Positions 16,743 through 39,572 of a stretch of DNA of 39,572 nt are shown one piece after another. The notes beneath the pieces are model-generated. The model was not told where the DNA came from and ran no database searches. It saw nothing but the letters and a program-made list of their open reading frames with translations. This DNA is from Candidatus Cloacimonadota bacterium (lineage in GTDB: Bacteria; Cloacimonadota; Cloacimonadia; Cloacimonadales; TCS61), in NCBI GenBank assembly GCA_030445745.1, contig JASUTE010000018.1, positions 1 through 39,572 of the forward strand, read 5' to 3'. Numbering within the stretch: the first letter of the stretch is position 1; each line of letters opens with the position of its first letter. Position numbers and translations under genes: made by a program.

Positions 16743-16818
16743 AAAAGTTCACATATACGACTAATTTGGAGGTATCCACGAACTTTTTGGAAAATCTAAT
16801 TGAAATATCCACGAACTT
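16743..16818 (+). repeat. 13-bp direct repeats upstream of the orphan secreted gene
   Basis: TATCCACGAACTT occurs at 16773-16785 and again at 16806-16818, a spacing of 33 bp or about three helical turns. An inverted part-copy, AAAAGTTC at 16743-16750, can pair with GAACTTTT at 16780-16787. The set ends 50 bp before the start codon, a position suited to an operator, though it may be debris of a repeat element. Confidence 0.4.
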
Positions 16819-16868
16819 GTTCGGACCATTAGTGGAAATAAGTAGTAAATATCAATTGGAGTATAAAT

Positions 16869-28672: not shown

Positions 28673-31600
28673 ATGAGAAAATTATTGTTTATTACATTTT
28701 TATTATTAAGTATTTCATTTCTGGGTGCGGAAATCATAAAAACGGAAATACACTTTGATGAACCTATCATTAAAACAGAAGGTAGCGAAACTTTAATAAC
28801 TTTTACCAATTGCCACAACCTGGGAAAATTAGGTGAACCAACTCTTCCTTACTTCGGTTTGAAATTACTACTACCACCCAGTAATGTAGCACAAGATATA
28901 AAATTGATAAAAAAAGATTTCGTGCAATTACCCGATACCTACTCTTTGTTAGTATATCAGCCTCAATATCCGCTTTCCGATGCAACCTATCACCAGCCAT
29001 TACCAGCTAAACCAGAAGTATATTCTAGCAAGCAGGTTTATCCAAGTAAATCTGTTATCAATTTGAAATCTCACAAATGGGCGGGATATAACCTTGCCAC
29101 AGCAGCAATAACGCCGATCGAGTATATCCCAGCTAACGGTAAAGTTGGTTACTATTCCAAAATTGAAGTTATTTTGGAAACAAAGATGCAAAACAGTGAA
29201 TTTGACATAAATGTTAACAACACAGCACCTGATATTGTAAACTTTGTAACCAGCAATGTTGAAAATCCACAGAAAATAAATTCCTATAATATGAGTAGAG
29301 AAAGAGAAGAAATTGACCTACTAATTATTGCTGCAGAAGAAAAATTGGAAGTTTGGGAAGAATACGCAGAAATATATAACACGATGGGCTATACTGTAAA
29401 TATTCATTCTGTTGAAGATATAGAAGCTGAGATAAATGGAACCGATCTGGCTGAAAAAATTCGCCGCTATATAAAAAACGTGTATATGGAAAATAATTTG
29501 ACTAATGTGCTGCTAGCTGGCGATACAGATGTTATTCCTGAGCGTGGTTTTTATGTAGATAATGGCAGTGAGGCAGATGATAATATTCCTGCAGATATGT
29601 ACTACGCCTGTTTGGATGGCAATTGGAATGCAGATAACGACGGCTACTGGGGCGAAGCAACAGAAGCAGATTTAGCTCCCGAACTAGCTATAGGTAGATT
29701 CTGTTACAATAACGATAGTGAAATCGAAAATTTTATTAATAAGATAAATAATTACTGGCACTCACCAATTCCTAATGAGGTAACTACCTCCCTTTTTGTT
29801 GGCGAATTACTATGGAGAGATCTAACTTATGGTGGTGATTATATGGATGAACTTATTGGTTCATCTGCTACCAATGGACACGTAACAACTGGTGTACCAA
29901 CAGATTGGCAAATTTCTAAACTTTATGAGCGAGATGATATTTGGGGTACTAGCCAAATTCTTTCTGAATTAAGTAAGGGGCCTAATTTAGTAAATCATTT
30001 GGGACATTCCTCGGCTAATTATAATATGAAACTCTCTACTAGTCAGGTAACCGATAATAACATAACCAATAGCGGTGATAATCATGGATATTCCATTCAT
30101 TTTTCTCAAGGCTGCTATGCAGGTTCATTCGATAATCGTAAATCTACCGGCTATTTTGGTCCTGATTGTATTACTGAAAAATTTACCAGTATCAGTAATT
30201 CTGCTGTAAGCATGATCGCTCATTCACGTTATGGCTGGGGTATGCAAGGTAGCACTAATGGCGCTTCCCAGTTTTTACATCGTGAGTTTATCGATGCTAT
30301 TTTTGGCGAAAATATCGTAGAACTCGGTTTTGCTTTAATGGATGTTAAGTTAGATGTAATACCATTTTTAGATTCCCCCACAATGTATTGGGTAAATTAT
30401 GAAACAAACCTTATCGGTGATCCCTTATTAAAGGTAAGAACCCAAACTCCAGAAAATATTTCGGTTATACATGCAGAACAAATTGTAGTAGGAACAACTG
30501 AATTGGAAATTGATGCAGACATTAACGCTGCTAATATTGTTCTAACACAAAATGAAAATATAATTGCCATCGGCTATACCGGTCTTTATGGTCAAACTAC
30601 CTTACAATTTGAACCTATCCAGAATCTGGAACCTTTACAGTTACAAATTTCCAAATATAATTATCAAACATATACAGCAGAAATAGCAGTTTTGAATTCC
30701 ACCTCACCTTATGTAGTTGCACCTGAAGTAGAGTTTATAGAAAATGGTGCTTATAACGATGGCTATTTGCAATCAAATGACATTTTAAATATGAACGTTA
30801 CTTTCCAGAACATGGGAAACAGTAACACTATTGGCCAACCTGTAGCTAATCTGAGTTGCTCAAGTAACTTCATTACAATATTGGAAGGTGAAACAACACT
30901 GCAAAGTATTGAAGCAAATGGAACTTTAACTTTAGAAGATGCCTTCCAAATAAAGGTGGAACCTGGTATAATAGAAAATACAGAAATAGAGCTTTTAGTA
31001 GAAATTTCCTATGAAGGTGAAGTTTGGGAAAGTACTTTAAATCTGCCTTTAGTAACACCACAAATAGAATATGTGGAACCCTTACTTTCGCTTATTTCTG
31101 GTGCAGATGATCAACTAAATCCAGGAGAAAGTGCTGAGCTTTACCTAATTTACCAAAATACTGGCGCAGGAGTTTCCTATGATTTGGCTACAACTGTTTT
31201 TTGCTATGATAGTTATATAACTGTTAGTGGTAGCGATCTTATTCCCTCCATCGACCCCGGCACAGAAGTTACTACCTGGCAGCCTATTCAAATTTCTATT
31301 GCAGAGAATTGCCCTGTTGACTATGAATTTAACCTGGATGTGATGGCTTATGACAATATAGGAGCTTCAGTATTCGAAACTATTGCCTTGGAAGTGGTAT
31401 ATAATGTTGCAAACGACCAAAACCTTCCCGCTGTTACAAAACTGAACAAAAATTATCCTAATCCTTTCAACCCACAGACAAGCATTTCATATTCACTAAA
31501 ACAAGCAGGACCTGTGAAAATAGAAATTTTTAATATCAAAGGACAGCTTGTACGTACACTGGTAAACACAACCCAAAAAGCAGGTAAATATAATGCAGTA

Positions 31601-31708
31601 TGGTTTGGCCAAAACGATTCTGGTTCCAAGGTTGGTAGCGGAATTTATTTTTATAAGATGCAAACTACAGATTTTACTGATATAGAAAGAATGTTATTAT
31701 TAAAATAA
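28673..31708 (+). CDS. Secreted gingipain-like C25 cysteine peptidase with C-terminal sorting domain
   Basis: This 1011-residue protein starts after TGGAGG. In order it has a signal peptide (MRKLLFITFLLLSISFLGA), a pro-region to about residue 205, a peptidase C25 domain (about 210-590), Ig/CARDB-like beta repeats, and a FlgD-Ig-like sorting domain at about 925-1011 (NYPNPFNPQTSISYSLKQAG, IFNIKGQLVRTLVN, GSGIYFYKM, MLLLK end). The likely catalytic residues are His445 in NHLGHSSAN and Cys481 in FSQGCYAGSFDN. The protein is expected to cross the inner membrane by Sec and reach the surface through a type IX-like route. It is 7 bp upstream of a second C25 gene and clearly paralogous to it. Gingipain-type Arg or Lys specificity cannot be inferred. 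Confidence 0.92.
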   Translation: MRKLLFITFLLLSISFLGAEIIKTEIHFDEPIIKTEGSETLITFTNCHNLGKLGEPTLPYFGLKLLLPPSNVAQDIKLIKKDFVQLPDTYSLLVYQPQYPLSDATYHQPLPAKPEVYSSKQVYPSKSVINLKSHKWAGYNLATAAITPIEYIPANGKVGYYSKIEVILETKMQNSEFDINVNNTAPDIVNFVTSNVENPQKINSYNMSREREEIDLLIIAAEEKLEVWEEYAEIYNTMGYTVNIHSVEDIEAEINGTDLAEKIRRYIKNVYMENNLTNVLLAGDTDVIPERGFYVDNGSEADDNIPADMYYACLDGNWNADNDGYWGEATEADLAPELAIGRFCYNNDSEIENFINKINNYWHSPIPNEVTTSLFVGELLWRDLTYGGDYMDELIGSSATNGHVTTGVPTDWQISKLYERDDIWGTSQILSELSKGPNLVNHLGHSSANYNMKLSTSQVTDNNITNSGDNHGYSIHFSQGCYAGSFDNRKSTGYFGPDCITEKFTSISNSAVSMIAHSRYGWGMQGSTNGASQFLHREFIDAIFGENIVELGFALMDVKLDVIPFLDSPTMYWVNYETNLIGDPLLKVRTQTPENISVIHAEQIVVGTTELEIDADINAANIVLTQNENIIAIGYTGLYGQTTLQFEPIQNLEPLQLQISKYNYQTYTAEIAVLNSTSPYVVAPEVEFIENGAYNDGYLQSNDILNMNVTFQNMGNSNTIGQPVANLSCSSNFITILEGETTLQSIEANGTLTLEDAFQIKVEPGIIENTEIELLVEISYEGEVWESTLNLPLVTPQIEYVEPLLSLISGADDQLNPGESAELYLIYQNTGAGVSYDLATTVFCYDSYITVSGSDLIPSIDPGTEVTTWQPIQISIAENCPVDYEFNLDVMAYDNIGASVFETIALEVVYNVANDQNLPAVTKLNKNYPNPFNPQTSISYSLKQAGPVKIEIFNIKGQLVRTLVNTTQKAGKYNAVWFGQNDSGSKVGSGIYFYKMQTTDFTDIERMLLLK

Positions 31709-31718
31709 GGAGAGAATG

Positions 31719-34700
31719 ATGAAAAAAATTACGATTTTACTATTATTGATAGCAACGGCACTACTTTTTGCAGATTTTACTCAGTACTACGAATTCGAAA
31801 GACCGGAAGTTATAGAAAAGGGTGATTATTCAGTTTTAAATTATCAAAATTCTCGTAATTTTGGTAATGAAGGAGAACCTTTTATTCCATTATATTCTGC
31901 TGAGCTTTTACTGCCACAAAACCAAGTTTTAAAGGCTGTGAAGTTAATTAATGTGGAATATTATGACAATATCGAGAATATAAGACTACAGCCGGCGGGA
32001 AAACAGCTGCCGTTGTCTTCCAAAAATGTAAAAGAATATGTACCAATAGAAAACAGCCAGATCTATAATTCACAGGAATATCCTGCTGAAATTGTTAGAA
32101 ATATTGATACGCAATTTCTTAGTGGACATTCAGTAGGATCATTTTCCTTCTGTCCTGTGGTATACTATCCCAACCAAAACCTAGTACTTCCTGTAAAATC
32201 GGTTGAGTTCCAAATTGTTACTGAGTCTTCAGCTAATGCCTTTGAAGCAGGTAGATTCCTAAAAAAGAATAAACTGATAGTAAATAGATTACAAAATATC
32301 GTCGATAATCCTAATATGCTTTATGCTTACAATTACCCTTCTGGCAAAGATGGAGAAGAGTACGATTTACTGCTGATAACCTCTGCAGAATTGCTAAACG
32401 GCTTTAGTGATTACTTAACATATAAAAGAAATACCGGATATTCTGTGAAAACCATCACAGTTTCCGATATTTATTCCCAATACTCAGGAGCTGACGATCA
32501 AGAAAAGATAAGAAATTGTATTATAGATTATTACGAAAACCACGATGTTTCCTATGTAATATTAGGTGGAGATTCTGCTCCCAATAGTTCTGCAGATGAT
32601 ATAATTCCCCATCGTGGTTTCTATGCAGATGTAAGTAGTTATACCGACTACGACATACCTTCCGATATGTATTACGGTTATTTGGATGGTACTTGGAACG
32701 ATGACGGCGATAATCGCTGGGGCGAACCCGATGAAGCAGACCTTTTAGCTGAAGTGCATGTAGGCCGAATTTGTGTAAGCGATTTAGAACAATTAGAAAA
32801 TAATCTAAATAAAGAATTTATGTATCAAGATACACCTGTGGTAGAAGATATTTCTAAAGCTTTAATGGTAGGCGAATACTTATGGACAAATACATATGGT
32901 GGACAGTATAAAAACGAAGTGTATCAGGGCAGCAGCGCTAACGGCTATACTACAGAGGGAGTAAGTGATAATTTCAGTGTTTCCACCTTATACGAAATGG
33001 ATAGTATTTGGACTAAATATCAACTTTTCGCTCAATTTAATCAAACTGGAATAAATATTTTAAATCATGATGGACATTCCAGTACTGATTATGTTATGAA
33101 GATATTCAACCCTGATGTAAATACCACAAACTTTACAAATGATGGTGTAGAACGTGGTTACGTAATTGGATATTCCCAGGGTTGTTATGCTGGTTCTTTC
33201 GATAATCGCGATATTAATGCTGGTTCTTACATTGATGATGAAAGCATAGCAGAATATCTTACCAATATTCCTACAGCAGAGGTAGCATTTATTGCAAATT
33301 CACGTTATGGCTGGGGTATGCAAGGTAGCACAAATGGTGCTTCTCAATATTTCGACCGAGAATTTTTCGATGCTATATTTGCTGAAGAAATTACTCAAAT
33401 TGGGTTAGCCAATGACGATTCTAAAGAAGATAATATCTCTTATATTAATGAAAATTCTGTAATTCGTTGGTGTGCTTACGAACTTACTCTATTTGGTGAT
33501 CCCACTTTGGATATCTGGACAAATACTCCCACAGATATCGTAGCTGAATATCCTGCCAGTATTCCTATTGGCTCCTCCAGTATGCAAATTACTACCGATA
33601 CACCCTTCAGCAGAATAGGTTTAATGCAAGAAAACGAATTAGTAGGAAGAGCTGTTACCGACCAATTTGGTGATGCTGAACTGGAATTCTTCCAACCAGT
33701 TGATTCCGGAATGCCTTTACAAATTTCTATTATTGGCCATAATAAAAACAGACTGCAAGACGAAATTGTAGTTGTTTCCGATCAATCTTATGTTATTTAT
33801 GAAGCAGCACAATTCAACGATGAAAACGAAAATGATATGGTGGAATATAACGAAGATGTAACTATCGACCTTACACTTTGGAATGTGGGAAACCAGATAG
33901 CTAACAACGTGGAAGCCAATTTAATTTGCGCTGATGAGTATATCAATATTTACGACACAACTGAAAATTATGGCACCATAGATGCTGAAAGCACAATGAT
34001 TTTAACTGATGCTTTCGCTTTTAGTGTAGCAGATGATGTTCCAGATGAACATACCGTGCAATTCGACCTGGTAGTTACAGGAGAAGCTAAAGATGTTTGG
34101 AATTCACATTTTAATCTGACGATCTATGCACCTATATTGGAAATAGGTGATATGGTAGTAACAGATGCTGATGGCGATAATGACGGTGTATTGGATCCTG
34201 GTGAAACTGCAGAACTGCAAATTCCTGTTACCAATATAGGGCATTCTCAATCGCCAACCGCTACTGCAACCATTATCTGTAGCGATGAAGGTATCACTAT
34301 AGCTGAGACAACTGCAGAATTAGGAGCAATAGCTGTGGCAGGAACCGAAATTGCTATTTACACTATTTCGGCAGATGAATCTATAGTAATTGGTACTCCA
34401 ATTAGCCTTTCTTTTGCTGTAGAAGCTGGTGCTTATGGTGTTTCTACAGAATTTGGTCATAGTATTGGCCTAATTTTTGACGACTTCGAGAGTGGAGATT
34501 TTAGTAAATTCGATTGGCAATTTGCTGGCGATGCAGAATACGTTATCTCTACCGAGTCTTACGAAGGTGAATTTTGTGCTCAAACTGGTGATATTGGTGC
34601 CAGCTCTACTACTTCATTAATAATTGAAATGGATGTTTTGGCAAATGGTGAACTCAGTTTCTGGAAAAAAGTATCTTGCGAAGATGATTCCAATGACAAC

Positions 34701-35924
34701 TGGGATTACTTTGCCTTCTTCATAGATGGAATTGAACAAGACAGATGGGATGGTGAAGTTGCTTGGAGTGAAGAAACTTATGAAATCCAAGCTGGTAATC
34801 ATACTTTTGAATGGAAATACCGTAAAGACGGATATGTAGATTCAGGTTCCGACTGTGCCTGGATAGATTATATAATCTTCCCAGCTGTAATTCCATCATT
34901 TCCACCGCAAATTGGTTGCGATATAACTGAAATAGAGATGCAAATGGGTACAAATACAACAGAAACAACTTCTTTTGAACTAAGCAATACAGGTGGTGGA
35001 ACGCTTGAATATTCCATCTATTTAGGAAATCCAGAAGAAAAAGACAAGGGTATAACAGATTCCTACCTGGAATGTGATGCTGAAGAATTTGAACCAGGTG
35101 ACATTGCAACTTGGCATTTATCTGCATTCAATGCTAGCACCGATAACGAGTGGATACAAGATATCAACATAACTTTACCTGTGGGAGTAACATTAGAAAA
35201 TGCCACCAATTTTGAAACTGAAGGTAATACTTTGGTATGGGATGAACAAACAGGAAATGGTGTAACCACTAGTTGGAATGAAGGAGATATATTCACCCAA
35301 GATTTTGCGGAAGCTGATATTGATGTCTCTATAGACCCCAGCTACCAAGGTGATATTGTAATTCCATACACGCTTTCCGGCAATGAATATGGAAGTCCAC
35401 CCCATCAGATAGAAGGTGAAATTGTGGTAGAATCTGTAGGCGATCTTCTTACGTGGATAAGTATTGAACCTATGCAAGGCAACTTGAATGGAGGAGAAAC
35501 TCAAGATATTAACGTCACCTTCGATACGGTAGATATGGAAGTTGGTACTTACGGCTGTCAAATTGTTATTGAAGGTAATGGTATGCAACAGATAGTACCG
35601 GTGACACTTAATGTTGTTCAAACAGCAAACGAGCCTACCCTACCAGCTATTACTAAGCTAAAGAGTAACTATCCCAATCCGTTCAATCCCGAGACTACTA
35701 TCAACTTCAGTTTAAAAGAAGCTGGCCCTGTGGAACTGGCTATTTACAACATTAAAGGTCAGAAAATTAAAACATTAGTAAATGAAATACTGCCAGCCCA
35801 GAATTACAACATAGTTTGGAATGGACGCGATGACAATAACCAACAAGTTTCTAGCGGTGTTTATTTCTATCGTATGCATACACCAACTTATACATCAACT
35901 AGGAAGATGATCCTGATGAAATAG
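31719..35924 (+). CDS. Large secreted C25 cysteine peptidase with adhesion-like domains and sorting domain
   Basis: This protein of about 1401 residues starts at the second of two adjacent ATGs, which is better spaced from AAGGAG. After the signal peptide (MKKITILLLLIATALLFA) and pro-region comes a C25 domain with likely catalytic His453 (NHDGHSSTD) and Cys489 (YSQGCYAGSFDN). CARDB-like repeats follow, then an insert absent from the upstream paralogue (about 920-1055). That insert (DDFESGDFSKFDWQF ... AWIDYIIFP) is a jelly-roll, carbohydrate-binding-like domain common in secreted proteins of this group. The remainder has Ig-like modules and a sorting domain (NYPNPFNPETTINFSLKEAG ... MILMK). 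The last 262 bp are nearly identical to the end of the gene at 36783, and the stop codon lies within a 38-bp tandem repeat. Confidence 0.92.
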   Translation: MKKITILLLLIATALLFADFTQYYEFERPEVIEKGDYSVLNYQNSRNFGNEGEPFIPLYSAELLLPQNQVLKAVKLINVEYYDNIENIRLQPAGKQLPLSSKNVKEYVPIENSQIYNSQEYPAEIVRNIDTQFLSGHSVGSFSFCPVVYYPNQNLVLPVKSVEFQIVTESSANAFEAGRFLKKNKLIVNRLQNIVDNPNMLYAYNYPSGKDGEEYDLLLITSAELLNGFSDYLTYKRNTGYSVKTITVSDIYSQYSGADDQEKIRNCIIDYYENHDVSYVILGGDSAPNSSADDIIPHRGFYADVSSYTDYDIPSDMYYGYLDGTWNDDGDNRWGEPDEADLLAEVHVGRICVSDLEQLENNLNKEFMYQDTPVVEDISKALMVGEYLWTNTYGGQYKNEVYQGSSANGYTTEGVSDNFSVSTLYEMDSIWTKYQLFAQFNQTGINILNHDGHSSTDYVMKIFNPDVNTTNFTNDGVERGYVIGYSQGCYAGSFDNRDINAGSYIDDESIAEYLTNIPTAEVAFIANSRYGWGMQGSTNGASQYFDREFFDAIFAEEITQIGLANDDSKEDNISYINENSVIRWCAYELTLFGDPTLDIWTNTPTDIVAEYPASIPIGSSSMQITTDTPFSRIGLMQENELVGRAVTDQFGDAELEFFQPVDSGMPLQISIIGHNKNRLQDEIVVVSDQSYVIYEAAQFNDENENDMVEYNEDVTIDLTLWNVGNQIANNVEANLICADEYINIYDTTENYGTIDAESTMILTDAFAFSVADDVPDEHTVQFDLVVTGEAKDVWNSHFNLTIYAPILEIGDMVVTDADGDNDGVLDPGETAELQIPVTNIGHSQSPTATATIICSDEGITIAETTAELGAIAVAGTEIAIYTISADESIVIGTPISLSFAVEAGAYGVSTEFGHSIGLIFDDFESGDFSKFDWQFAGDAEYVISTESYEGEFCAQTGDIGASSTTSLIIEMDVLANGELSFWKKVSCEDDSNDNWDYFAFFIDGIEQDRWDGEVAWSEETYEIQAGNHTFEWKYRKDGYVDSGSDCAWIDYIIFPAVIPSFPPQIGCDITEIEMQMGTNTTETTSFELSNTGGGTLEYSIYLGNPEEKDKGITDSYLECDAEEFEPGDIATWHLSAFNASTDNEWIQDINITLPVGVTLENATNFETEGNTLVWDEQTGNGVTTSWNEGDIFTQDFAEADIDVSIDPSYQGDIVIPYTLSGNEYGSPPHQIEGEIVVESVGDLLTWISIEPMQGNLNGGETQDINVTFDTVDMEVGTYGCQIVIEGNGMQQIVPVTLNVVQTANEPTLPAITKLKSNYPNPFNPETTINFSLKEAGPVELAIYNIKGQKIKTLVNEILPAQNYNIVWNGRDDNNQQVSSGVYFYRMHTPTYTSTRKMILMK

Positions 35925-36017
35925 TCCTTCGTAATTTCATGAGACAGGTCCTAATGAAATAGTCCTTCGTAATTTCATGGGACAGGTCCTGATGAAATAG
36001 TACTTCGTAATTTCACA
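35911..36017 (+). repeat. 38-bp tandem hairpin repeat, three copies, overlapping the stop codon
   Basis: Units begin at 35911, 35949 and 35987; the third is shortened at its end. Each has ATGAAAT and ATTTCAT arms (35916-35922 and 35934-35940 in copy 1) around an 11-nt loop, followed by GGGACAGG or GAGACAGG. Copy 1 supplies the final codons and TAG stop of the peptidase gene. The unit length is not a multiple of three, so the array is non-coding after the stop. The same unit recurs at 39001. Confidence 0.9.
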
Positions 36018-36030
36018 TGAAAGATATGGT

Positions 36031-36056
36031 CGGAGAAGCAATTCTCCGCCTTTTTT
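36031..36056 (+). terminator. Rho-independent terminator after the tandem C25 peptidase genes
   Basis: CGGAGAA / TTCTCCG form a 7-bp stem around GCAA and are followed by CC and six T. It lies about 105 bp after the stop codon, beyond the 38-bp repeat array, and should end the two-gene peptidase transcript. Confidence 0.8.
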
Positions 36057-36158: not shown

Positions 36159-36193
36159 TTCCGATGATCCCGATAAATCGGGAACAATCGGAA
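36159..36193. repeat. Imperfect palindrome with nested stems
   Basis: TTCCGAT-ga-TCCCGAT pairs with ATCGGGA-aca-ATCGGAA around a 2-nt loop. A related perfect palindrome built on CCCGAT occurs at 39170-39189. These look like members of a dispersed intergenic palindrome family. Confidence 0.6.
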
Positions 36194-36257
36194 GTGTAGG
36201 TTTCATAAATCCTGCTAATCATCAAATCCTGACAATCCTGATTCTGCCTTTTTTCTT

Positions 36258-36782: not shown

Positions 36783-39014
36783 ATGTTAAAAAAGGCATTA
36801 ATAATCATGTTGTTGGGTATAGCCCTAACTTTTAGTTTAACTGCAGAAGATATAAGTTTTAACAAGGTAAACGACTTCGCCTTTGCCCAAACCTATAACA
36901 CTCCGGAATGTATAAAAATAAGAGATGGATATCTATATGCTACAACTTCACATGGCTTAGAGATTTTTGAAATAGATGGCAGTAATAATCTGGAAAAAAT
37001 TTCCATGGTAATAGCTCCCTCTCCTTATAGATTTCTTATAAAAGATAATTTTATCTATTTACATAACTACCAGCGAGATGACTATCAATTTGCTAATTAT
37101 AAAATCTATCAGATTAATATTAGTGACCCATACGATCCTTCTATCGTTAATACTTTGGACTTCGGTAATGATAAAAGAATAACTAGCATGAACATATTTG
37201 ATGACAAATTAAACTTCCAATTAATGCAAAATGGTGATATAGTTGAAAATAATATATATTCCTTACCCGGATTGGAACAGGTTGGAGAGCTGCCACTAGA
37301 TTTGGAACCTAACAAGATAAATAATAATTTAGCTTTGGATTGGAATAATGAAGTTGGACAAATCGGATATTATTCTATCTATAACACCAGCGACCTTTGT
37401 AATCCTATCTATTTAGGAGATATTGATCTGTCTCAAGTTGCCCTTCATGCTAAAACTTTAAATGATAGCATAGCTGTTATCTCCGATTCAGAGAAAGTTA
37501 CTTTTTGGAATATAAGCGATCCTGCTAACTGGGAATTGATATCTAACTACCAATCTAGTAATGTATTGCATTGGTTCGATAACTTTTCAATAATGGAAAA
37601 TTATCTACTATTATTGAATTATTCTGGTTTCGAAATACTCAACATTGAAGACTTAAACAATATAGAGCTTGTTGATGATATAATTGCCTATGATTCTGTA
37701 GTAGCAAATTGCCATACAAATAATAATATATTTCTAGCTAGTGGCCGGGATGGCATACAGAAATATTCATTTAATAATGAGTTCATAGAGTATATTGAAA
37801 GTTACTATGAATATCCATCATTTTATCATAGTTACAGTTATCAGAATTATCTTTTTGTACAAAGTAGCCGACATGGTGTCTATCTTTTTGATGTATCCGA
37901 TCCCTTACAGCCTGTGGAGATAGAAACAACTCTGTTGGCAGATAAATATAAAGTAATACAAGGAAAGAACAACCTGATTTGGGTCATGGATTTCACCGAT
38001 TATAGTTACAAGATCTTCGATATTAGTAATCCGGAAGCACCTATTCTTAGGAATACTATTCCAGTGGGCGATTGGCTTCAAATAAGTTGGTCTTGCCTCA
38101 GGTTCGATGGCTCTAATATAGATGAAGTCTATCTTTTTTTTATGGATCCCACCAGAATAGAGAAATACGATATCTCTGAACCAGGAGAACCACAATTACT
38201 ATTTGATTACTCATTATCTACCCAAGGATATGCATTTTCCGTAAAAGATGGTTACGGTTATATTGCCGAACCTACTTCCGATTCCAATAACCTGTATATA
38301 TTGGAAGGGTTAGAAGAAAATGAACCATACATTTCAACCACGCTCGAAAATTTTTCACCGTCTTACGAAGATTTTTATCTCCAACTACTAGGAGATAAAT
38401 TATTTACCAGAAATGAACCCATTAAAAGTTATGAGTTGAGTAATCCTTTGGAACCGGAATTTCTTTATCAGCTTGAATATGACACTCAAGGTAGATTAAA
38501 TTCTCATAATGACTATTTAGTTGGGAAACAAGCTAACTACTTACCAATCTATGATATTTCTAACGTTCAAAACACAATTGTACCAGCAGAAATGATACTT
38601 GAGCTAATTTCAGCGGCATATGGTTGTAATTTCTTTGAAATAGATGGGCAAGAATACATGTTTGTGGTCGAAGTCTCTGCAATTGAAGTATTTGAAATAA
38701 ATAATACCAGCAATATAGGAGAGTTAGAAGTTGTTGATATGGGAACTAATTTGAGTAACTATCCCAATCCGTTCAATCCTGAAACTACTATCAACTTCAG
38801 CCTCAACGAAGCTGGCCCTGTGGAACTAGCTATCTACAACATTAAAGGTCAGAAAATTAAAACATTAGTTAATGAAACACTGCCAGCCCAGAATTACAAC
38901 ATAGTTTGGAATGGCCGCGATGACAATAACCAACAAGTTTCTAGCGGTGTTTATTTCTATCGTATGAACACATCTACTTATACATCAACTAGGAAGATGA
39001 TCCTAATGAAATAG
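36783..39014 (+). CDS. Secreted LVIVD-type beta-propeller protein with C-terminal sorting domain
   Basis: The start is the ATG at 36783, with AAAGGAG upstream and a signal peptide (MLKKALIIMLLGIALTFSLTA); the frame extends back to a TTG at 36756, but that has no ribosome binding site. The 743-residue product contains at least seven repeats of the type DISxPxxP (for example NISDPYDPSIV, DVSDPLQPVEI, DISNPEAPILR, DISEPGEPQLL, ELSNPLEPEFL), which form a beta-propeller of the LVIVD/choice-of-anchor kind. The last about 86 residues are a FlgD-Ig-like sorting domain (NYPNPFNPETTINFSLNEAG ... MILMK), almost identical in DNA to that of the preceding peptidase gene. The protein is probably surface-exposed and ligand-binding; no catalytic residues are evident. 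Confidence 0.9.
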   Translation: MLKKALIIMLLGIALTFSLTAEDISFNKVNDFAFAQTYNTPECIKIRDGYLYATTSHGLEIFEIDGSNNLEKISMVIAPSPYRFLIKDNFIYLHNYQRDDYQFANYKIYQINISDPYDPSIVNTLDFGNDKRITSMNIFDDKLNFQLMQNGDIVENNIYSLPGLEQVGELPLDLEPNKINNNLALDWNNEVGQIGYYSIYNTSDLCNPIYLGDIDLSQVALHAKTLNDSIAVISDSEKVTFWNISDPANWELISNYQSSNVLHWFDNFSIMENYLLLLNYSGFEILNIEDLNNIELVDDIIAYDSVVANCHTNNNIFLASGRDGIQKYSFNNEFIEYIESYYEYPSFYHSYSYQNYLFVQSSRHGVYLFDVSDPLQPVEIETTLLADKYKVIQGKNNLIWVMDFTDYSYKIFDISNPEAPILRNTIPVGDWLQISWSCLRFDGSNIDEVYLFFMDPTRIEKYDISEPGEPQLLFDYSLSTQGYAFSVKDGYGYIAEPTSDSNNLYILEGLEENEPYISTTLENFSPSYEDFYLQLLGDKLFTRNEPIKSYELSNPLEPEFLYQLEYDTQGRLNSHNDYLVGKQANYLPIYDISNVQNTIVPAEMILELISAAYGCNFFEIDGQEYMFVVEVSAIEVFEINNTSNIGELEVVDMGTNLSNYPNPFNPETTINFSLNEAGPVELAIYNIKGQKIKTLVNETLPAQNYNIVWNGRDDNNQQVSSGVYFYRMNTSTYTSTRKMILMK

Positions 39015-39152
39015 TCCTTCGGAATTTCATGGGACAGGTCCTAATGAAATAGTCCTTCGGAATTTCATGGGACAGGTCCTAATGAAATAGTCCTTCGGAA
39101 TTTCATGGGACAGGTCCTGATGAAATAGTCCTTCGTAATTTCATGGGACAGG
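39001..39152 (+). repeat. 38-bp tandem hairpin repeat, four copies, overlapping the stop codon
   Basis: Units start at 39001, 39039, 39077 and 39115 without gaps. Copy 1 contains the propeller gene's last codons and TAG stop. In copies 1-3 the loop reads TCCTTCGGA, so TCC pairs with GGA and extends the ATGAAAT/ATTTCAT stem. Copy 4, like the array at 35911, has CGTA instead and loses that extension. Confidence 0.92.
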
Positions 39153-39572
39153 TCGTCGATTTGCCAAGAATCCCGATAGTTATCGGGATCAATAAGACAG
39201 GCTTTATGATACCGCGTCATTTCTGAGGAATTCTCCGAACTCGTTCGACGAAGATTCTATTAAAGGCATTAAGTCCTAAATTATAGATTGCTTCACCCAT
39301 AAAGGGTTCGCAATGACGGTTTTTGTGTCATTACGACTGGAAGCCGTAGGCTGGAATGGAGAAATCTCTCTTTCTCTTAAAACTCTTATGAGATCTGCGC
39401 CAGAGGAAGCATAAATCTCGACTCCACTTCGTTCCGCTCGAGGTGACAGTTTAGTCCTCAAGAAACCCCTCTGCTCTGCTCTGCTACGCTTGCCCTATGG
39501 AATGCAGCTATGCTGCCGGCTTTGCCGATTCCACTAGGGCAGAGCTTCTCCCCTTAAAAGGGGAGCAAAAAA
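39153..39572. repeat. Mosaic of palindromic intergenic elements to the window edge
   Basis: No gene is seen in the last 420 bp. Elements include ATCCCGATA/TATCGGGAT (39170-39189), AATGAC/GTCATT arms (39312-39332) inside a 'TTGCTTCACC...GGAGAAATCTC' type segment (about 39285-39369), and a 21-bp copy of the element at 36096 (39396-39416). They also include a long imperfect inverted repeat TGCCCTA-t-GGAAT with ATTCC-ac-TAGGGCA (39491-39541) enclosing GCAGC/GCTGC, and CTCCCCTT/AAGGGGAG (39548-39565). The minus-strand reading frame here is a by-product of the repeats. Confidence 0.7.

Follow-up and report, generated by a model that had tools for sequence, protein, structure and literature searches.

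A miniature palindromic element of Candidatus Cloacimonadota that appears to insert at the ends of type IX sorting-domain genes and to supply a replacement C-terminus

We analysed a 39,572-nt stretch of DNA from a Candidatus Cloacimonadota bacterium (contig JASUTE010000018.1, hereafter the window), in which two genes for secreted proteins end in head-to-tail arrays of a 38-bp hairpin. The repeated unit is very likely a miniature palindromic mobile element that inserts at the ends of sorting-domain genes, provides a replacement C-terminus and restores its own target; for insertion with a replacement C-terminus, taken by itself, our confidence is high. That the element is selfish and silent for the protein is likely. 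At the level of sequence, it could be established that the element is inserted, where it sits and that it provides a new C-terminus, as well as that the hairpin covaries and that two subtypes occur in one tandem. The support for movement is the comparison of genomes; no movement was observed. The original prediction holds in that the element is structured and associated with sorting-domain genes at their 3' ends, whereas its proposals of a terminator or a domain-moving recombination site are not supported as the main explanation. It took no account of the sequence downstream of the hairpin, which in most genomes is a relic of the original gene end and therefore points to insertion.

The arrays of the window and their hairpin

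Both host genes, the element copies, the terminator-like hairpin and the block shared by the two loci are on the forward strand. The first open reading frame (31716..35924) encodes a C25-family peptidase (Peptidase_C25, E=9.2e-53) with a C-terminal type IX sorting domain, recognised by the Pfam domains Por_Secre_tail and FlgD_ig, and its last codons and TAG now lie inside the first unit of array 1. The second (36783..39014) encodes a secreted protein with an LVIVD-like match and a C-terminal type IX sorting domain with the same two Pfam domains, and its TAG is inside copy 1 of array 2. In the region 28673-35924, two genes for C25-family (gingipain-type) peptidases adjoin each other; each has a sorting domain, and an array is present only at the second of them.

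Tandem Repeats Finder placed array 1 at 35911-36015 (period 38, 2.8 copies, 94% matches) and array 2 at 39001-39154 (period 38, 4.1 copies, 98% matches), and direct reading agreed with this, confirming the three units at 35911 and the four at 39001 of the original prediction. In array 1, copy 1 (35911..35948, model R1 family) and copy 2 (35949..35986, model match 35948-35986) were identified as tandem repeats and by reading the sequence, and copy 3 (35987..36016), without the 3' tail, by pattern search and reading. The four copies of array 2 (39001..39038, 39039..39076, 39077..39114 and 39115..39152) were found as tandem repeats, by reading and by model matches, copy 1 matching model R1 with 67.5 bits. 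The insertion points lie between 35910 (A) and 35911 (T) and between 39000 (A) and 39001 (T). As predicted, the arrays begin within the last codons of the sorting-domain genes and carry their stops: copy 1 supplies ILMK and TAG in both array 1 (TAG at 35922-35924) and array 2 (39012-39014). The units abut without spacers, in agreement with the earlier view that they are not CRISPR, and neither are they a protein repeat. After copy 3 of array 1, a relic of the original gene end can no longer be recognised, and the sequence 3' of copy 4 of array 2, TCGTCGATTTGCC, is a degraded relic at most.

The two loci share a block of 353 bp with 94% identity (35663..36015 versus 38753-39105, blastn) that includes the sorting domain and array sequence. 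Therefore, they count as one copied case, which rules out their use as two independent cases; to judge from this alignment, the pair was probably copied as one block. An Rfam search of the array region revealed nothing relevant. The window also contains intergenic palindromes at 36160-36195 (CCGATGATCCCGATAAATCGGGAACAATCGG) and 39161-39183 (ATCCCGATAGTTATCGGGAT), apparently of other families, and 2.1 copies of a 33-bp unit at 16773-16840 that is unrelated to the element.

In aligned copies, the hairpin has 14 bp, TCCTR-w-TGAAAT-AG-TCC-TTC-GGA-ATTTCA-YRGGA, with a 1-nt bulge (w), a 2-nt bulge (AG) and a 3-nt loop (TTC), every bulge being on the left strand. Thus, the predicted hairpin is present, but it is longer than the arms ATGAAAT/ATTTCAT given for it. 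The additional TCC/GGA pair is, as stated previously, intact in units 1-3 at 39001; it is broken in the fourth (TCC/GTA) and in the array at 35911. In general form, the fold is TCCTR-w-TGAAAT-AR-...-ATTTCA-YRGGA followed by a YARR tail, with a length of about 35-40 bp; the left arm, at its end, and the AG bulge together contain the stop codon. Units from different genomes were predicted to fold as RNA with energies of ~-6 to -12 kcal/mol. In an alignment of 85 distinct sequences fitted to the structure model, 97.1% of pair cells were standard pairs and 9 of the 14 pairs had two-sided changes, with 81 compensated cells (0/500 shuffles as high); slid controls were far lower than the true pairing. 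The cautious figure is that of a free alignment of 17 copies, with two-sided changes in three pairs (1/500 shuffles as high). Covarying pairs include G-U pairs. This covariation supports the predicted hairpin.

Displaced gene ends and empty sites

At sorting-domain genes, the element is situated in the fourth-last sense codon, between bases 1 and 2: ...AAR ATG N^TN YTN NTN AAR TAR. The arm 5' of the hairpin is stereotyped, N TCCTGATGAAATAR, and reads in frame as Ile-Leu-Met-Lys-stop. In other genera, a second gene end with codons that vary from gene to gene follows 3' of the hairpin, for example TG TTG TTG AAG TAA, TA CTT CTG AAA TAA or TA TTA ATT AAA TAA. Joining the flanks (base N plus the sequence after the element) restored K-M-x-L-x-K/R-stop in 45/52 distinct copies, compared with 12/37,200 in a shuffled control; the pattern applied was strict (K-[MV]-[ILMV]-L-[LMI]-[KR]-stop), and 7/52 joins fail it. 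Differences between relic and arm are distributed over codon positions 1, 2 and 3 as 35, 7 and 69. Of 109 codons that differ, 75 encode the same amino acid. Because of this third-position bias and synonymous excess, we regard the relic as formerly coding sequence. It is identical to the element's own arm in 9/52 copies, which partial duplication would give as well. Since the new stop codon precedes it, the relic is currently not translated as a part of the gene. Its phase is fixed relative to the 3' end of the element, although the length of the element varies (mostly 35-39 bp), and on this ground we rejected a coding or frameshift role for the relic.

For a comparison with empty sites, orthologues of filled genes were taken from the same family and the element was excised. 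Five same-genus comparisons from four orthologue groups, in which some genomes recur, matched across the join in 22-27 of 27 nt. The filled site of genome G063 (ACTAAAAAGATGA, 36 bp, TACTTCTGAAATAA) and the empty site of G031 (ACTAAAAAAATGATACTTCTGAAATAA) agreed in 26/27 nt, and the filled site of G022 (ATAAAAAAAATGA, 37 bp, TATTAATTAAATAA) agreed with the empty one of G063 (ATAAAAAAAATGATTTTAATCAAATAA) in 25/27 nt, or 88/92 with the UTR. One filled site of G062 (ATAAGAAAAATGA, 37 bp, TCTTAATTAAATAA) was identical to empty G031 in 27/27 nt; that of G033 (ACCAAGAAGATGA, 36 bp, TGTTAATAAAATAA) matched empty G028 in 25/27 nt, and another of G062 (GTTAAGAAAATGA, 35 bp, TGTTATTGAAATAG) matched empty G060 in 22/27 nt, G033 (L355) being empty there too. 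In these comparisons, the sites differ by a single clean insertion with no more than one ambiguous T duplicated, and a target-site duplication of at least 2 bp, as for a MITE moved by a DDE transposase, was not found. The subtype at a given site can vary within a genus, as two congeneric genomes of orthologue set B show. The proposed recombination site moving C-terminal domains between proteins is not supported as the main explanation by these data, since a filled orthologue differs from its empty counterpart at the site by the 35-37 bp of the element, with the flanks kept. The fixed position may reflect a preference of the mobilising enzyme, or it may be only apparent, with insertions elsewhere in the gene having been lost and those at the only silent position having survived.

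Distribution, growth and possible movement

Genome-wide counts rest on pattern and covariance-model searches and fetched stretches. The genome of the window (2.04 Mb) has 19 covariance-model matches; about 9 of 12 separate loci are at the ends of sorting-domain genes (contigs C19 twice, C14, C29, C28, C34, C10 twice and C38), a preference in line with the original prediction, and only about 9 of its 69 sorting-domain matches carry the element. Several copies are at contig ends, as expected of repeats, and the array on C38 has its own diverged sequence. Far from being limited to two loci related by one duplication, the element was detected by the covariance model in 21/40 genomes of the family and 27/125 genomes of the phylum Ca. 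Cloacimonadota. Named records with the element are nearly all from this phylum, plus one WOR-3 genome and one low-coverage Desulfitobacteriaceae contig. The WOR-3 genome (G125, L230) has 29 matches of a related palindrome, ACCCTGATGAAATAG...CAGGGTAAAC, and those read are intergenic; a recognisable sorting-gene end was found at 0/7 fetched copies. Records assigned to Armatimonadetes bin.262 (JABMPU; L204, L208, L211, L218, L229) look the same as G009 of the window's family, so that their title is apparently misassigned. In genome G006 (L043:1640-1713, L169, L054), fragments of sorting-domain ends (~13 codons, DKFVQTKKMILMK-stop) recur with the hairpin away from intact genes, with another palindrome upstream, CTTCCCGAAAA...TTTTCGGGAG.

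The first base of copies at sorting-domain genes is T, and its partner is almost always A; copies elsewhere mostly begin ACCC or AACCC, and the opposite base of their outermost pair is G or T. The outermost stem base was T in 47/47 distinct sorting-gene sequences versus 9/31 others, a test that is biased by a model built from sorting-gene copies, by relatedness and by a few of the 31 being array-internal or pseudogene copies. At this base, T gives an Ile, Leu or Val codon and C, in the ATC context, a Thr codon. Because the stem pair changes on both sides, the element is apparently adapted to silence, and the change of the outermost pair looks like an adaptation to leave the protein unaffected.

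One sorting-domain gene (L216) ends in two different subtypes in tandem (first loop AAAAAGAG, tail TAAA; second loop GCTACG, tail CAGG) followed by a relic. Insertion into a target that was restored by the first insertion would explain this tandem, whereas copying of one unit would not. For the near-identical units of the window, growth by unequal recombination is equally possible as growth by serial insertion. At five loci (L272, L285, L177, L147, L324), a second palindrome or insert is present inside the hairpin; the inner palindromes often belong to the GGAAT...ATTCC type, which would fit insertion of one such element into another.

We propose that the element inserts at (ATG)N^T in the last codons of a type IX sorting-domain gene, where its left arm would supply ILMK-stop, giving near-identical last residues and a barely changed protein. 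The original end would remain 3' of it as an untranslated relic, and the same target would be restored, so that further copies could insert and head-to-tail arrays could build up. We infer that the element persists because it is silent for the protein. We also tentatively consider that a lineage of mobile palindromes adapted its terminal stem pair to the coding sense of a host protein domain (C-G to T-A, by which a Thr codon becomes one for Ile), uses the ~70 sorting-gene ends per genome as renewable safe harbours and is moved by a single-strand nuclease preferring KM^xLxK-stop.

That the hairpin covaries and no clear target duplication exists suggests REP-like movement, in which the element would be a folded hairpin of single-stranded DNA. 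Such movement has been described for IS200/IS605 ends and proposed for REPs. Y1 transposases were present in 4/4 genomes first tested. Cloacimonadota genomes are very rich in matches to the RAYT (REP-associated tyrosine transposase) family, with as many as 24 in one genome, and many of these matches have their own distinct flanking palindromes (L116, L123, L236, L238, L242). Among the ORFs of the multi-copy stretch L179, inspected by eye, no clear candidate for a transposase gene between neighbouring copies was seen.

Is the element then a true REP mobilised by the RAYTs of these genomes? This is conceivable but doubtful. RAYT-family matches occur in 36/40 family genomes, the hairpin-bulge-hairpin shape and size are those of published REPs (PMC6006769), no more than one ambiguous base is duplicated at the target, and the covariation is as expected of a folded strand. 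Against this, 58 Y1/RAYT loci, which cover a part of the RAYT genes, gave no convincing model match (marginal scores only, E 0.12 or worse), the palindromes beside the sampled genes differ from the element, and GTAG or GTGG is absent from the hairpin foot. Another reading is a host-maintained RNA element: located at the stop codon, the hairpin would protect sorting-domain mRNAs at their 3' ends or influence translation termination, and would be kept as useful. We consider this unlikely. It would account for the strong covariation including G-U pairs and for the association with one gene class, and E. coli REPs have been reported to affect mRNA stability and termination (PMC3733652, PMC6006769). 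However, few sorting-domain genes of the genome (about 9/69) carry the hairpin, close relatives lack it at the same gene, and copies also exist away from such genes; moreover, it lacks a T run, and array 1 is followed by a terminator-like site of its own. An RNA role concerns function and is compatible with arrival by insertion; indeed, an RNA role, a RAYT mobiliser and insertion could all apply together.

The two remaining explanations are much less probable. Tandem duplication and gene conversion alone, by which homologous recombination would have carried an ancient 3' end along with the sorting domain and partial duplication would have produced the second end, would fit the 353-bp block (domain and array, 94% identity) of the window loci and the 9/52 relics equal to the arm. 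Yet most relics keep gene-specific codons that match the empty orthologue and not the arm, both flanks belong to the host gene, and the L216 tandem holds two different subtypes; the filled/empty comparisons already disfavour this explanation, which we consider highly improbable. An intrinsic transcription terminator overlapping the stop codon, also raised by the original prediction, has a negligible chance of being correct. Its hairpin would be stable (predicted energies of ~-6 to -12 kcal/mol) and at gene 3' ends, but no T run follows it, and a pattern scan located a separate terminator-like hairpin at 36031-36048 with a subsequent T run (36031..36056; CGGAGAAGCAATTCTCCG CCTTTTTTGT) 3' of array 1. 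We rejected the terminator on these two grounds.

Palindromic repeats at gene ends are usually taken as regulatory 3' hairpins, and here one appears to have arrived by precise insertion. A hairpin that imitates the protein end it displaced would be a very small example of coding mimicry making a mobile element harmless, and one that regenerates its target. With about 70 sites per genome and relics that record events, the system is countable and bears on the movement of elements shorter than 40 bp, a question also posed by REP-like DNA. Caution is called for as well, since type IX cargo proteins of Cloacimonadota can owe their final residues and their stop codons to the element.

Comparison with known palindromic elements

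No description of this element was found in the open-access literature (subscription papers were outside the scope), consistent with the original statement that no named element has this form. REPs are short, imperfect, bulged palindromes (20-65 nt) that occur in clusters and form subfamilies whose stems differ by compensating changes, and GTAG REPs often supply a TAG stop to flanking ORFs (PMC3733652, PMC6006769). The element resembles REPs and BIMEs in all these respects, being a short bulged palindrome with compensating subfamilies that forms clusters and supplies TAG. Its 14-bp hairpin with 1-nt and 2-nt bulges and a 3-nt loop also conforms to the REP shape of basal stem, 1-3 nt bulge, apical stem and short loop (PMC6006769). 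In contrast to REPs, it has no GTAG or GTGG tag in the ends read, which have the 3' tail CAGG, TAAA, CAAG or CAGA (CCTG, TTTA, CTTG or TCTG on the other strand) and, at genes, the 5' flank ATGA, ATGC or ATGG. Furthermore, it was not found beside the sampled RAYT genes, its arrays are head-to-tail, its position is fixed in one class of gene ends, and its arm encodes the residues that it replaces.

Palindromes inside protein-coding genes are known from CGTC-tagged repeats including the Rickettsia palindromic elements (RPE), which are without a known dedicated transposase (PMC3733652, PMC10969869) and are defined by a CGTC (or TGTC, CCTC) motif at one end (PMC3733652). The element likewise inserts in protein-coding genes, as seen in the filled and empty orthologues, but none of these motifs was present at the ends read, and RPE add an in-frame peptide to unrelated genes, whereas the element replaces the last residues and stop at one site. 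With MITEs, described as 70-300 bp (PMC3733652), it shares shortness, palindromic structure and the lack of an own gene; it differs in being half that size or less, in its single hairpin and in the target duplication, which comprises one ambiguous base at most.

Another parallel is offered by integrases that regenerate tRNA genes at their 3' ends: the incoming DNA copies the displaced end, and a relic is left on the far side. The element also brings a copy of the gene end and leaves a relic on the far side, but it has no integrase, measures tens of bases instead of kilobases and uses the ends of protein genes instead of tRNA genes. To summarize, we set the element apart from the REP and RPE families because of the absence of GTAG and CGTC tags, the fixed gene-end site and the apparent coding mimicry, and file it as a new variant of palindromic elements that resembles both REP and RPE and is a member of neither.
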